From contig JAIQGH010000020.1 of the NCBI GenBank assembly GCA_020072655.1, positions 1 to 36,690 of the forward strand: 36,690 nt of DNA, read 5' to 3'. The notes under the pieces are model-generated. The model was given only the letters and a program-made list of their open reading frames with translations. It was not told the DNA's origin and ran no database searches. This document shows positions 1,437 to 12,316 of this stretch, one piece after another (position 1 is the first letter of the stretch; each line of letters begins with the position of its first letter). Source of the DNA: Terriglobia bacterium (GTDB lineage: Bacteria; Acidobacteriota; Terriglobia; UBA7540). A program made the translations under genes and the position numbers.

Positions 1437-2804
1437 ATGAGTGGTGACGTTGCGCGGTTCGAGCGCGAGTTTCTAAACGACCCCGCGCTGGCCGAACGGG
1501 TGCTGGGGAACGCCAAGGAAAGCCGCGCACCTACATATCAGCACTCCCCGGCTGACGGGCGCCTGTGGCCCGACCCTCCAGCGGTGGAGGCGTACCAGGG
1601 ACTGGCGGGCGATTTTGTTGCAGCAATCGAGCCGCACTCCGAAGCCGACCCCATAGCGCTCCTTGTGCAATTCCTCTGCATGTTCGGGAATGTCATCGGG
1701 CGCGGTTCTCACTTTACAAGAGAGGCCGACCGGCATTTTACGAATCTGTTCGCGGTGTTAGTAGGCGCAACCTCGAAGGGGCGCAAGGGCACAAGCCAGT
1801 CACGCGCGCGCGCGGCGTATGAGGCGGTGGACACCCAGTGGGCGCAGACCCACATTTTGAGTGGCCTTTCAAGCGGCGAGGGAGTGATTTGGGCCGTGCG
1901 CGACCCAATCACCAAGCGTGACCCGATCCGCGAGCGTGGCCGGGTCACTGGATTCCAGGAGATCGAGGCAGACCCCGGCATCGCCGACAAGCGACTTCTC
2001 GTTTTTGAATCGGAGTTCGCGCTGGTACTCAGAGTTATGACCCGCGAGAGCAACACGCTCGCCGCAATCATCCGGCAAGCGTGGGACACCGGGAATCTCC
2101 GCACGCTCACCAAAAACAGTCCAGCGGCAGCCACGGGAGCGCATATCTCTATCATTGGGCATATAACCGTTGAAGAATTGCGCCGCTATATCACCGAGAC
2201 AGAACTTGCCAGCGGATTTGCAAATCGCTTCCTCTGGCTCTGCGTCAAACGCTCAAAATGCCTCCCGGATGACGACCACCGGATAGACCAAGCGAATCTC
2301 GCGTTCCTGACTGACCGGCTCCGGCGAGCCGTTGAGTTCGCGCGCCAGTTTGGGGAAATCAAGCGAGACGATGCAGCGCACGCTGACTGGAGGGGAATCT
2401 ATTCTGCGCTGACGGCGGGCAGACCAGGTTTGTTAGGCGCGGCCACCTCACGCGCCGAGGCGCAAACCATGCGGGCTGCTATGGTTTACGCCTTACTGGA
2501 CTGCTCCCCTGCGATTCGGCAGGAGCATCTCCGGGCGGCACTCGCGCTGTGGCAATACGCCGAAGCGTCGGCGAAATTCATCTTCGGCGATGCCCTCGGC
2601 GACCCCACGGCTGACGCGATTCTTGAAGCCCTCCAGCGGAATCCGCTCGGACTGACGCGAAACGAAATATGCGACCTGTTCGGTCGTCATAAGTCTAGGC
2701 AGGAAGTCGAACGGGCACTACGCACGATCCTTGCAGTCGGAGCGGGCAAATTTGTCCAAGAACAGTCAGGGGGCAGGCCAACCGAAAGGTGGTTAGCTTT
2801 GTGA
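1437..2804 (+). CDS. DUF3987-type phage/plasmid ATPase (helicase-like)
   Basis: A 455-residue protein resembling DUF3987 proteins of phages, plasmids and integrative elements, thought to act in element replication beside a primase (family knowledge). A variant P-loop, GATSKGRKGTS, lies near residue 115. A Walker-B-like strand with acidic residues (LLVFESEFA) lies near residue 190. The family-typical segment TGAHISIIGHIT and the FANRFLW segment follow. The C-terminal 80 residues look like a winged helix (LTRNEICDLFGRHKSRQEVERAL). I chose ATG at 1437 because GCGAGG lies 6 nt upstream; an in-frame TTG at 1392 has no better site. It is the first gene of a plus-strand run ending in integrase. No primase active-site domain is visible in it, so whether it loads or unwinds DNA is open. 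Confidence 0.75.
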   Translation: MSGDVARFEREFLNDPALAERVLGNAKESRAPTYQHSPADGRLWPDPPAVEAYQGLAGDFVAAIEPHSEADPIALLVQFLCMFGNVIGRGSHFTREADRHFTNLFAVLVGATSKGRKGTSQSRARAAYEAVDTQWAQTHILSGLSSGEGVIWAVRDPITKRDPIRERGRVTGFQEIEADPGIADKRLLVFESEFALVLRVMTRESNTLAAIIRQAWDTGNLRTLTKNSPAAATGAHISIIGHITVEELRRYITETELASGFANRFLWLCVKRSKCLPDDDHRIDQANLAFLTDRLRRAVEFARQFGEIKRDDAAHADWRGIYSALTAGRPGLLGAATSRAEAQTMRAAMVYALLDCSPAIRQEHLRAALALWQYAEASAKFIFGDALGDPTADAILEALQRNPLGLTRNEICDLFGRHKSRQEVERALRTILAVGAGKFVQEQSGGRPTERWLAL

Positions 2805-2868
2805 CCCCTGCGAGTAAAGCGAGACAACCCGTTTTTTCGCTTATTTCGCACCGCAAGAGGTTTCACCA

Positions 2869-3129
2869 ATGGACTACCTCGCAATTTTGAAAGAGGCTGA
2901 CCAGAGACGTGAGCCGGAAAATTCTCAGTCGGCAACTCGACCCCACACCACCGAAGCAGAGGCTTCAAAACCAATGGGGACTTCGGCGACTGGCGGTAGC
3001 GTGATCTGCGACTCTCCCTGCTGCGCCGACTGTTACGAGCTGTGGTTTGGCGGCCCGAAGATTCACCCTCCCAAAGCATCTCCAGAGTGGCAACGATGGC
3101 GAGAGCGCTGGGAAAAGGTGAAACAGTGA
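2869..3129 (+). CDS. Small Cys-rich hypothetical protein
   Basis: An 86-residue protein of unknown family. The N-terminal half is polar and probably disordered. The C-terminal half carries a C-x4-CC-x2-C cluster (CDSPCCADC) and ends in a Trp/Arg-rich tail (WQRWRERWEK). The cysteines suggest a metal site, by inference only. AAGAGG precedes the ATG by 8 nt. The stop codon overlaps the start of the next gene (TGATG at 3127-3131), which argues that it is translated and coupled to the zinc-finger gene. It sits 64 bp after the ATPase gene, inside the element's plus-strand run. Confidence 0.6.
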   Translation: MDYLAILKEADQRREPENSQSATRPHTTEAEASKPMGTSATGGSVICDSPCCADCYELWFGGPKIHPPKASPEWQRWRERWEKVKQ

Positions 3130-3746
3130 TGACGGCAACCGCGCAAGTCGAATTCAGCTTGCCAGACCTCTTACGCTGCGCGGGCGCGCGGATCGTTTCT
3201 GAACGCCGGGCCGATTGTCCCAGTTGCCGGGGACGGCGAACCATTTCGTACACAGCGGACGTTTTCAACTGCCACCACGCAGGCTGTGGGTTTCGTGGAA
3301 GTGCCACCACACTAGCCCGCGATTTGGGCTTGGCGAAGCGTCTTTCAGCAGCGGAGCGGCGCACCAGCGCCCGCGTCCGGGCGCAAGCCCAGCAAGCCGC
3401 CGCGTGGCTAACGGCAGAGCTGCGCGCCCGCCGTTTCGCGCTTTACGACGCGCACCAGGCTTTGCTCAGCATCGTGTTTGGCGCGAGTGCCAGGTTCCGG
3501 CGCGATATGAGCGATGAAATCGCTTGGGCCGGTCTCGCCTATGCGTATCCGCAACTTGACTCAGTGCGTGCTGAGCTTAGCGTGCTGGAAGCTGCCCCGA
3601 TCCCAGATCGCCTGATACTGCTCAAACAAAGCGACTCCCACCACAAGGAGATTATCCGCCGCGCCATCGAACGAGGCGGAGTCAAGGACGCCAACGGGCG
3701 TTTCGTAGAGATCGAAGTTTACTGTCCCGGAGTGTTCCAGGTATGA
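3129..3746 (+). CDS. Zinc-finger protein, CHC2/primase-like N-terminus
   Basis: A 205-residue protein starting at the ATG that overlaps the upstream stop; the open frame continues further up to 3042 but without a ribosome site. The N-terminus has a zinc-ribbon pattern, CPSC then CHHAGCGFRG about 17 residues later, as in the CHC2 finger of DnaG-type primases that binds single-stranded DNA (family knowledge). The remainder is Ala/Arg-rich and helical, with no recognisable TOPRIM motif. It is therefore at most the DNA-binding part of a primase, or a stand-alone finger protein. The next gene begins inside its stop (ATGA at 3743-3746). Neighbourhood with a DUF3987 ATPase supports a role in element replication. 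Confidence 0.65.
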   Translation: MTATAQVEFSLPDLLRCAGARIVSERRADCPSCRGRRTISYTADVFNCHHAGCGFRGSATTLARDLGLAKRLSAAERRTSARVRAQAQQAAAWLTAELRARRFALYDAHQALLSIVFGASARFRRDMSDEIAWAGLAYAYPQLDSVRAELSVLEAAPIPDRLILLKQSDSHHKEIIRRAIERGGVKDANGRFVEIEVYCPGVFQV

Positions 3747-4012
3747 CGACGAATGACGAGATTCTCACTGTTGCCGAGGTGGCCGCAGATTTGCGATGTT
3801 CCAAGGCCCACGTCCACAATGCCATCAATGGCAAGGTAGCGGGTGTCACACCACTCCCAGCCATACATATGGGCCGCAGGAAACTTGTCCGCCGCAGCGC
3901 CCTTGAGCGGTGGAAGAGGGCCAACGAGAAAGGCTCGTTTGATGCTATGATTCCGGCATCGCCGGAAGTTGACGCCGTTAGACCCATGAGAGGAGAACCT
4001 CATGCCTCGTAA
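3743..4012 (+). CDS. Excisionase-like helix-turn-helix protein
   Basis: An 89-residue protein with an N-terminal winged helix of the MerR/AlpA/excisionase kind: LTVAEVAADLRCSKAHVHNAI is the helix-turn-helix, followed by a wing ending in GRRKLVRRSALERW. Such proteins bind attachment-site DNA and bias integrase towards excision, or regulate the element (family knowledge). It overlaps the previous gene by 4 nt (ATGA) and the integrase gene by 11 nt, so these genes are translationally coupled. Xis next to int is the usual arrangement at an element end. Whether it acts as excisionase or only as a transcription factor cannot be told from sequence. Confidence 0.8.
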   Translation: MTTNDEILTVAEVAADLRCSKAHVHNAINGKVAGVTPLPAIHMGRRKLVRRSALERWKRANEKGSFDAMIPASPEVDAVRPMRGEPHAS

Positions 4013-5093
4013 ACGGCATCAGCAAGGAAGTTTGAAAGTCGTTCGCGGACGTTGGATAGCCCAATGGTGGGAAGACGGCCACCGCCGAAACAAACTGCTT
4101 GGGAAGGTAAGCAAGGTCACGAAATCGAAGGCAGAGGACGAGCTAGCGAAGATCGTGGCCCCGCTCAACGCGAAGCAGCGAGGCCTATCGGAAGACTTGA
4201 AATTCGGTAGTTTCGTGAATCAAGTCTACCTCCCCTGGTATCGCCGAAAGTGGAAGAGTTCAACGACGATGTGCAACGTTGACCGCATAGAACATCACCT
4301 CGCCTGTGAATTCGCCGACCTTACACTGAAATCACTTAGGGCGAGCGGATTGCAGGATTTCTTGGAGCGGAAGTCTGCCGCCGGACTCTCGTTCAGCACA
4401 GTGGATCATTTGCGGTGGGACTTGAAGCAAATCTTCGGAATGGCGGTCGCCGAAGGCTCTTTGCAGAAGAATCCCGCCGCGCTTCTGTTCACTCCCAGCA
4501 AGACCGAGCGTCCTACCCAGCGGGTGATGGCATGGCGGGAGGTTAGGTTACTTTTTTCGGTCCTTGAGGCGAGAGAGCTCGCTGTCTGTATGCTTGCGAC
4601 CGTTGCAGGTATGCGGCCTGGCGAGATTTTCGGCCTCAAGTGGCGCAATGTGGAAGGCGACGAAATCAAGATCGAGCAGCGCTTGTACCGGGGACAGATC
4701 GACTCTCCGAAAACACCCAAGTCCAAACGGAGCGTCGCGCTGTCCGAGGGCTTACAGTCTGTAATAGCTGAGTGGAGTCTGCTATCCGGCTCCCCCGGCC
4801 CGGATGCGTGGGTATTCCCCTCAGAGACCATGAAGACACCGCTTGCGAAAGACAATTGTTGGAGGCGATGGATTGCACCAAAGCTGAGGGCCGTCGGCCT
4901 CGAATGGGTGAATTTCCAAGTGATGCGACGCACACACGCATCCCTCATGCGAGAGCTGAAGGTCGATCCAAAGACCGTCGCCGACCAGCTTGGGCATTCT
5001 CTTGATGTGGACTTGAACGTCTACACCAAAACCGCGCTGGGGCCGCGCAAGGAAGCCGTCAACAGCTTCGAATCGGCCCTGCGCGTCATGTAA
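4002..5093 (+). CDS. int: Tyrosine recombinase / integrase
   Basis: A 363-residue phage-type integrase that would catalyse site-specific recombination of the element. The N-terminal 55 residues resemble an arm-type DNA-binding domain (QQGSLKVVRGRWIAQWW). A SAM-like core-binding domain follows at about 65-150, and the catalytic domain from about 170. Catalytic Arg I is in AGMRPGEIFGL. The beta-hairpin Lys is probably in SPKTPKSKRSV. Box II reads QVMRRTHAS, with Gln where most members have His. LGHS supplies the later His, and the nucleophile Tyr is in LNVYTKT. GGAG precedes the ATG. The gene ends 53 bp from the 3' end of tRNA-Gly, the classic position of an integrase beside its attachment site. 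Length and domain order are complete, so it may be active. Confidence 0.93.
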   Translation: MPRKRHQQGSLKVVRGRWIAQWWEDGHRRNKLLGKVSKVTKSKAEDELAKIVAPLNAKQRGLSEDLKFGSFVNQVYLPWYRRKWKSSTTMCNVDRIEHHLACEFADLTLKSLRASGLQDFLERKSAAGLSFSTVDHLRWDLKQIFGMAVAEGSLQKNPAALLFTPSKTERPTQRVMAWREVRLLFSVLEARELAVCMLATVAGMRPGEIFGLKWRNVEGDEIKIEQRLYRGQIDSPKTPKSKRSVALSEGLQSVIAEWSLLSGSPGPDAWVFPSETMKTPLAKDNCWRRWIAPKLRAVGLEWVNFQVMRRTHASLMRELKVDPKTVADQLGHSLDVDLNVYTKTALGPRKEAVNSFESALRVM

Positions 5094-5221
<128 letters not shown>

Positions 5222-5482
5222 GCGCAGATTCCTAACAGAAGATAGCACGGGCTCGAACGGCCCGCAACAATCACGGCAGGGCCATCATGCCGGAGCTTGC
5301 GCGCCGCACCTGCGCAGGGACACCTTCCTCACGCCGGGGGTGAGCGACAATCGCCGTTCTCTCCCCCAATAATGAAACCCGGCCAGCGCAACGATCAAAG
5401 CCCAGCTCGACATCGCTTGGGCAGGATGCTATCCGCACTCCGGCTCATGCCAGGGATTGCGGCGCGCGCCGTCGTGGAGGTC

Positions 5483-11122: not shown

Positions 11123-12316
11123 CTAGCCCGATTTCTGAACGTATGCAGCTTGTGCCGAGAGAATCACCTGCTTGAGCGGCACATTCTTCTCCGTCGCAAG
11201 CTTCTGGCAGTCTTCGTATTCTGGGGCGGCGTTGAGGACCTTGCCCTGGCGCCGGGCGACCTTCACGCGCACCGTGCCGTAAGGCGTTTCGACTTCAACG
11301 GACTCCCGCTCCAAGACCCTGCGGCGCGCCTCGTGCATCCGCAAACCGATGGTCGTCGTCTGCTCGAAGACGAGTTGGGCGAGCGCGTCCGCGCCCTCCG
11401 GCGGCGAGAGGAGGGTCACGAGAAATCCCGGCCGGTTTTTTTTCATCTGCACCGGCGTGCAGGTAACGTCCAGCGCGCCTGCCGAGAGCGCCCGCTCGAC
11501 GAAATAACCGTAGAGCTGCGGGTTCATGTCATCCAAGCTTGCCTCGATGACGGTGACCAATTCCTCGCCCGGCAATCCCGGCTGCGCTTTCACCGCTTCC
11601 AGGGCTTGGCCGATGAAAATCCGCGCCACATTGGGATGTTGCGGGAATTCTTTCGCGCCCGCGCCGTAGCCAATCCGCTCGATTTTGAACGAGGGGAACG
11701 GCCCGAAGCGCGCGGCCAGCGTCGAGACGATTGCCGCGCCCGTGGGCGTGACGAGCTCGCCTTCGACGCCCGATGAGTAAATCGGAATGTCTTTGAGCAA
11801 CTCCGCGGTTGCCGGTGCAGGCACGGGGAGCGATCCGTGCGCGGCTTGCGTGCGCCCGCCGCCGACGTTCAAAGGCGAGGAAATGAGTTCGGAAATCTCC
11901 AGCGCCTCCACACCCACGCACGCGCCCACGATATCAATGATGGAGTCCACAGCGCCCACTTCGTGGAAGTGGATTTCCGAGGGCGGCTGATTGTGCAGCT
12001 TCCCTTCCACTTCCGCCAGGCGGCGAAAAATCTTGAGCGCTTTTTGCTTCACGCCTTCCGAGATCGCCGCCTTGCCGACGAGCTCTTCGATATCGCCCAG
12101 CTTGCGACGCGGCTGGTCCGGCCCCACCTCGACCTCCCAGCGCGTGCCCACAATGCCGCCGCGCAGGGCCCGGGTGCGTTTCAGCTTGTAGAAACCCAGC
12201 GATAGCTTCTTCAGCTCGTCGAGGAGGTGTCGCGGGTCGAACCCCGCATCGAGCAACGCCGCCAGGAACATGTCTCCGCTGATGCCCGCTGAACAGTCCA
12301 GGTATGCTTGTTTCAT
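11123..12316 (-). CDS. larC: Nickel-pincer cofactor biosynthesis protein LarC
   Basis: A 397-residue LarC (formerly DUF111) protein that inserts nickel, in a CTP-dependent step, to finish the nickel-pincer nucleotide of lactate racemase and related enzymes (family knowledge). The N-terminus YLDCSAGISGDMFLAALLDAG is the family signature. HFHEVGAVDSIIDIVG follows near residue 125, then LVTPTGAAIV, EASLDDMNPQLYGY and MKKNRPGFLVTLL. The protein is a single continuous frame, unlike the split larC1/larC2 of some lactobacilli. At the MKKN codons there is a run of eight A (T at 11436-11443 on the plus strand), a potential slippage site. No larA, larB or larE is in the window. GAGG lies a few bases before the ATG. 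It appears to head the minus-strand group. Confidence 0.93.
   Translation of the reverse strand: MKQAYLDCSAGISGDMFLAALLDAGFDPRHLLDELKKLSLGFYKLKRTRALRGGIVGTRWEVEVGPDQPRRKLGDIEELVGKAAISEGVKQKALKIFRRLAEVEGKLHNQPPSEIHFHEVGAVDSIIDIVGACVGVEALEISELISSPLNVGGGRTQAAHGSLPVPAPATAELLKDIPIYSSGVEGELVTPTGAAIVSTLAARFGPFPSFKIERIGYGAGAKEFPQHPNVARIFIGQALEAVKAQPGLPGEELVTVIEASLDDMNPQLYGYFVERALSAGALDVTCTPVQMKKNRPGFLVTLLSPPEGADALAQLVFEQTTTIGLRMHEARRRVLERESVEVETPYGTVRVKVARRQGKVLNAAPEYEDCQKLATEKNVPLKQVILSAQAAYVQKSG

Follow-up and report, generated by a model that had tools for sequence, protein, structure and literature searches.

A five-gene module at tRNA-Gly(CCC) as the probable end of an integrative element with type I-E CRISPR-Cas cargo in Acidobacteriota

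Genes and features between the CRISPR array and tRNA-Gly(CCC)

The window analysed here is the entire contig C182 (36,690 nucleotides, JAIQGH010000020.1) of a draft Terriglobia genome in 209 contigs, and its left edge falls inside a CRISPR array. Between this array and an intact tRNA-Gly(CCC) gene (positions 5147–5221, minus strand), the presumptive integration target, lies a module of five plus-strand open reading frames at 1437–2804, 2869–3129, 3129–3746, 3743–4012 and 4002–5093. A gap of 64 bp separates the first, DUF3987-like gene from the second, and the remaining four are chained by overlaps: TGATG at 3127–3131 joins the gene for a Cys-containing protein to that for a finger protein, ATGA at 3743–3746 joins the finger gene to the excisionase gene, and the excisionase and integrase genes overlap by 11 nt (4002–4012). 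The list of open reading frames and the sequence agree on these five genes and overlaps, as claimed in the earlier note; the array, the tRNA-Gly gene and the position of the contig end within the array are additions to it.

The gene at 1437–2804 (+) encodes a free-standing DUF3987-type ATPase, which matches the C-terminal part of the primase-DUF3987 proteins of its relatives and contains a conserved GxTxxGRKGT motif. The protein is assigned to the DUF3987/primase type by PHROG primase profiles (best match 1.3e-6) and by its homologues; the protein itself has no direct DUF3987 match in Pfam, and three of four close homologues match PF13148. The 86-aa Cys-containing protein (2869–3129, +) has a relative that adjoins the finger gene in genomes G006 and G012 and lies near it in G052. 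The finger protein (3129–3746, +; 205 aa) contains a CHC2-like zinc ribbon with an invariant C-P-x-C ... C-H ... C pattern, and no TOPRIM match was found in it with Pfam, PHROG or NCBIfam profiles, in keeping with the primase-like finger without TOPRIM that had been proposed.

The further suggestion that the finger protein and the ATPase form a two-protein replicase found no support. The finger protein is a ribbon with helices, in which neither a TOPRIM nor an AEP catalytic domain was found, and for this reason the idea that it constitutes a primase-helicase with the ATPase by itself is not supported. Relatives carry this ATPase domain as a fusion, either with Prim-Pol (AEP) or with CHC2 plus a weak Toprim-like match. 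In the present element the ATPase stands alone, and the readable sequence yielded no primase domain, so that priming may be provided by the host or a helper, or the module may have a role other than priming. Structure prediction added little, the AlphaFold model of the ATPase (pLDDT 43) being too poor to use and that of the finger protein (pLDDT 86) giving no confident PDB match.

The last two genes encode an 89-aa HTH_17 excisionase/AlpA-like protein (3743–4012, +; PF12728, 2.2e-7), which is 84% identical in the related element of genome G026 described below, and a tyrosine recombinase (4002–5093, +; PF00589, 1.3e-14; phrog_1, 6.7e-53), whose close homologues are located at tRNA-Gly genes; Pfam, PHROG and NCBIfam all back their assignment as excisionase and integrase. 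Only 53 bp separate the end of the integrase gene from the 3' end of the tRNA. The putative attachment core (5147–5191, minus strand) spans tRNA-Gly from its anticodon loop to its 3' end, a common choice of tRNA-targeting tyrosine recombinases, and is identical to positions 11626–11670 of contig C7. A TGGAGTA direct repeat (5094–5110, +; copies at 5094 and 5104) provides candidate integrase arm sites, and the same motif is found at C7:11506, 11517 and 11537, at the far end, and at both ends of the G026 element.

On the other side of the module, the CRISPR array (1–436, +; repeat GTTCTCCCCACGCACGTGGGGATGGTCC) is truncated by the contig end and comprises seven full identical 28-nt repeats with a period of 61 and six 33-nt spacers, together with one partial unit; a whole-genome search returned no second array with this repeat. 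Seed patterns of four spacers gave no matches in viral contigs, the array stretch identified no target in phages, and its strong matches in 299 related genomes were other arrays, the remainder being short and marginal, so that no spacer target was found in any of these three sets. Between the array and the ATPase gene lies a minus-strand gene (521–1363) for a 280-aa protein of unassigned family, without a convincing match in Pfam, PHROG, NCBIfam or PADLOC and with only two weak relatives among 399 genomes, making it nearly unique to the present genome. Opposite-strand genes of similar size occupy a comparable place in G026 and G032.

The far end on contig C7 and the case for a single element

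The 45-bp 3' half of tRNA-Gly occurs in exactly two copies in the genome, one in the tRNA itself and one, in direct orientation, at C7:11626–11670, where ARAGORN detects no tRNA. Outside the C7 copy, at a distance of 115 bp, is a gene for a ROK-family kinase (named from sequence inspection), followed by ordinary chromosome. Inward, on the minus strand, are genes for a 134-aa protein, a 104-aa acidic protein, an HNH protein and a 448-aa HTH/coiled protein (HTH448), and then intact cas3, cas8e, cas11, cas6e, cas7e, cas5e, cas1 and cas2, which are matched by curated Cas models as well as by I-E specific models. The cas open reading frames and the array repeats read as intact, and with the contigs placed in the way that the att repeats require, the cas genes and the array point in the same direction.

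Arrays next to this cas operon's closest relatives (G021, G162, G324 and G072) have repeats of the kind seen in the window array. In the stretches read around three of these operons (G021, G324 and G162), neither a tRNA nor a homologue of the window integrase was found. In G072:C232 (L223:3147–4734), a tyrosine-recombinase-like gene lies directly against a cas1 that is truncated at its 5' end and belongs to the same I-E lineage. The end of C7 itself is odd: past cas2 (C7:1–270), where the relatives have a leader and the first repeat, come a hairpin resembling a terminator and the beginning of an unrelated open reading frame; the middle of the element may be rearranged, or the contig end may be mis-assembled.

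Both ends are found together in G026 (Acidobacteria subdivision 13 bacterium RH2 MAG17b, NFUN01000059.1), where a complete 10-kb element lies on one contig. It is 83.5% identical in DNA to window positions 3742–5222 (start of the excisionase gene to tRNA) and 75% identical to C7:8808–11670 (near the HTH448 stop codon to the att copy), with no DNA match between these two common ends. The host flanks are also informative: the same-genus genome G001 has relatives of both, and G003 has tRNA-Gly, an integrase remnant, an att copy and the ROK gene on one contig, with about 120 bp between att and ROK. An exact empty site was not found; tRNA-Gly in G001 is without an integrase but is followed downstream by an MFS transporter gene, not directly by ROK.

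We infer the joining of contigs C7 and C182 across one assembly gap, which takes in the leader and the missing array units. Alternatively, two unrelated things may be present, an element beside an array remnant on C182 and the end of another element beside a chromosomal cas operon on C7, a reading that would suit the lack of a physical join and the odd sequence at C7:1–270. This is very unlikely, since the two ends match the two ends of the one assembled G026 element between its two att copies, the exact att pair is unique in the genome, the array, cas operon and att are all oriented correctly, and the flanks in G001 and G003 fit. For these reasons, and because the array repeat kind matches that of the cas relatives with no other such array in the genome, a single element is preferred. 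We thus consider it highly likely, from the sequence, that the module is the tRNA-proximal end of an integrative, satellite-sized element in tRNA-Gly(CCC) whose cargo is CRISPR-Cas I-E; a complete CRISPR immune system is very probably carried on a mobile island of at least 16.9 kb. Read along the minus strand of the window, its order would be tRNA-Gly, integrase, excisionase, zinc ribbon, Cys protein, DUF3987 ATPase, 280-aa gene and CRISPR array, then, past the assembly gap, cas2-1-5e-7e-6e-11-8e-3, HTH448, HNH, the 104-aa acidic and 134-aa genes and the 45-bp att copy, bordered by the host ROK kinase gene.

Relatives with exchanged cargo and the nature of the element

The G026 element resembles the present one in its integrase, excisionase, distal four-gene block and tRNA-Gly att, but differs in its replication genes and cargo. 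Between the common ends it holds a phage-O/DnaA_N replication gene, a small HTH gene and a 251-aa gene, and its slot contains a type ISP/IIG restriction enzyme (PADLOC, 3.4e-273). A larger, 48-kb element lies in tRNA-Gly between identical att copies at G010:C18:128213–176204, with an integrase about 70% and an excisionase about 80% identical to those of the window; it encodes a TrwB-type coupling protein, Replic_Relax and ParB and, beside its far att, a DrmD-like helicase, an SMC-like ATPase and a type III methylase/restriction pair. In the same tRNA-Gly, the stretch G010:C18:128213–180121 comprises two tandem elements with three identical att copies, the second being a decayed 4-kb element. 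G009 has a 15-kb stretch between two att-like copies with an integrase fragment, in which no defence genes were seen by eye.

Across the class, genes for DUF3987, finger or HTH448 proteins lie near an integrase beside a tRNA at 15 loci, where the tRNAs are Gly, Leu, Thr, Asn, Glu, Pro and Met and where replication genes, integrases and tRNA sites are shuffled. The expectation that the five-gene order would recur at tRNA genes is therefore borne out in part: related sets recur at these 15 other loci, but the exact order was not seen and only sub-sets do so, namely Cys with finger (overlapping in G006 and G012), DUF3987 with finger (G005), excisionase with integrase (in most close integrase homologues) and integrase with finger.

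Every strong HTH448 relative in a scan of 84,980 species genomes came from an Acidobacteriota record, and the HTH448 block may be common to other small elements. HTH448-type genes at L191:5304–5930 and L193:4793–8642 lie, by eye, beside possible Rep-like and transglycosylase-like proteins and small proteins with C-terminal membrane anchors. The present genome has a second small integrative element, at tRNA-Glu (G000:C153, about 88200–98350; L194:4218–14350), with an integrase, a 935-aa primase-helicase, an HTH448-like C-terminal protein and, in addition, small proteins that may carry membrane anchors.

What kind of element this is can be judged from both readable halves. No capsid, portal, terminase or tail gene and no relaxase, coupling protein or mating-pair gene was recognised in either half, outside the assembly gap, which upholds the view that the module has no structural or conjugation genes. 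The edge of an ordinary prophage was considered and rejected, the left side being the CRISPR array and probably the I-E cas operon, with no structural genes recognised on either side. The likeness to the replication-integration core of phage satellites and small integrative elements stands for the small integrative element but not for the satellite, neither a packaging gene nor one for capsid remodelling having been recognised, and no helper being known; calling the element a satellite is unproven and goes beyond the evidence.

A true phage satellite of the PICMI or P4-like kind would be induced and packaged by a helper, with CRISPR-Cas or restriction cargo guarding the host against the helper's rivals. 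The combination of an integrase, an HTH_17 protein (PF12728), a DUF3987-type replication gene and a defence slot does resemble the PICMI definition, and a small gene set in which neither half has recognised capsid or conjugation genes would suit such a lifestyle. We nevertheless regard it as rather unlikely, given that packaging, capsid-size and helper-sensing genes were not recognised, the site is tRNA-Gly and not fis, the element, at 16.9 kb or more, is big for a satellite limited by its capsid, large systems such as CRISPR-Cas are described as lacking from P4-like satellites (PMC9122126), and viral contigs gave no confirmed relative of either the DUF3987 ATPase or HTH448. The coupling protein, Replic_Relax and ParB of the 48-kb G010 element, which has the same integrase type, suggest instead a mobilizable or reduced conjugative relative of that element, moved by conjugation. 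This too is unlikely: neither half of the present element has recognised relaxase, coupling or mating-pair genes, and no distal block was detected in the 48-kb element, although this block is part of the DNA common with G026.

For the small integrative element favoured here, a working scheme can be proposed. The integrase would recombine attP with the part of tRNA-Gly from the anticodon loop to the 3' end, restoring a whole tRNA, with the TGGAGTA repeats as candidate arm sites, and the HTH_17 protein is the likely directionality factor that would direct excision. The DUF3987 ATPase and the zinc-ribbon protein may assist replication of the excised circle, with a primase supplied by the host or a helper. 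An exchangeable anti-phage system would occupy the slot that separates the distal four-gene block from the replication genes; in the present element this is type I-E CRISPR-Cas, which, judged by its gene families, presumably gives anti-phage immunity, and the element as a whole may be transferred between hosts.

Comparison with known islands and satellites

If this interpretation is correct, a small tRNA-targeting element in Acidobacteriota can take a full adaptive immune system along as cargo, and similar ends can be combined with differing cargo: CRISPR-Cas I-E, type ISP/IIG restriction or, in the larger element, type III restriction together with DISARM-like genes. Related elements with differing cargo make defence-cargo swapping directly testable, and the uncharacterised distal genes (HTH448, HNH, 104-aa and 134-aa) may serve as markers for further elements.

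P4-like satellites likewise combine a conserved core with an exchangeable anti-phage slot, but their cargo consists of short systems within a small-capsid limit, to which the absence of large systems such as CRISPR-Cas is attributed (PMC9122126), and a P4 core gene was not identified in the present element. PICMI satellites of Vibrionaceae, for which packaging by a helper phage has been shown, integrate at fis and share with the present element an integrase, an AlpA/HTH_17-type regulator, a small gene overlapping the integrase gene and a defence hot spot, and have a DUF3987 replication gene of which the window's ATPase gene is a candidate counterpart; their defence systems are RM, retron, DRT and PARIS (PMC10803314), as opposed to CRISPR-Cas here. 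Measured against the PICMI definition, the element has the integrase (PF00589) and the AlpA-like regulator (PF05930 or PF12728; here PF12728, 2.2e-7), its primase marker (DUF3987, PF13148, or DUF5906) is matched in Pfam by three of four homologues and not directly, and its site is tRNA-Gly in place of fis.

Among the open-access papers searched, the precedent for an integrative CRISPR-Cas I-E island is GI-24 of Vibrio cholerae classical strains, described in PMC6360697 as a 17-kb island that bears an integrase, has attL/attR and contains a complete type I-E CRISPR-Cas, whose excision was shown by PCR and whose class of islands is said not to be self-mobilizing. GI-24 belongs to another bacterial phylum and lies between VC0289 and VC0290, as against tRNA-Gly here, and the available part of that paper does not mention relatives with swapped cargo, in contrast to the G026 relative of the present element. 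As in an island of this kind, a tyrosine integrase lies at an att site with a matching far repeat, here on another contig, and a complete I-E cas set with an array falls within the att boundaries, assuming contiguity across the gap. According to PMC6360697, GI-24 also has the variant gene order seen in the present element, cas3-cas8e-cse2-cas6-cas7-cas5-cas1-cas2.
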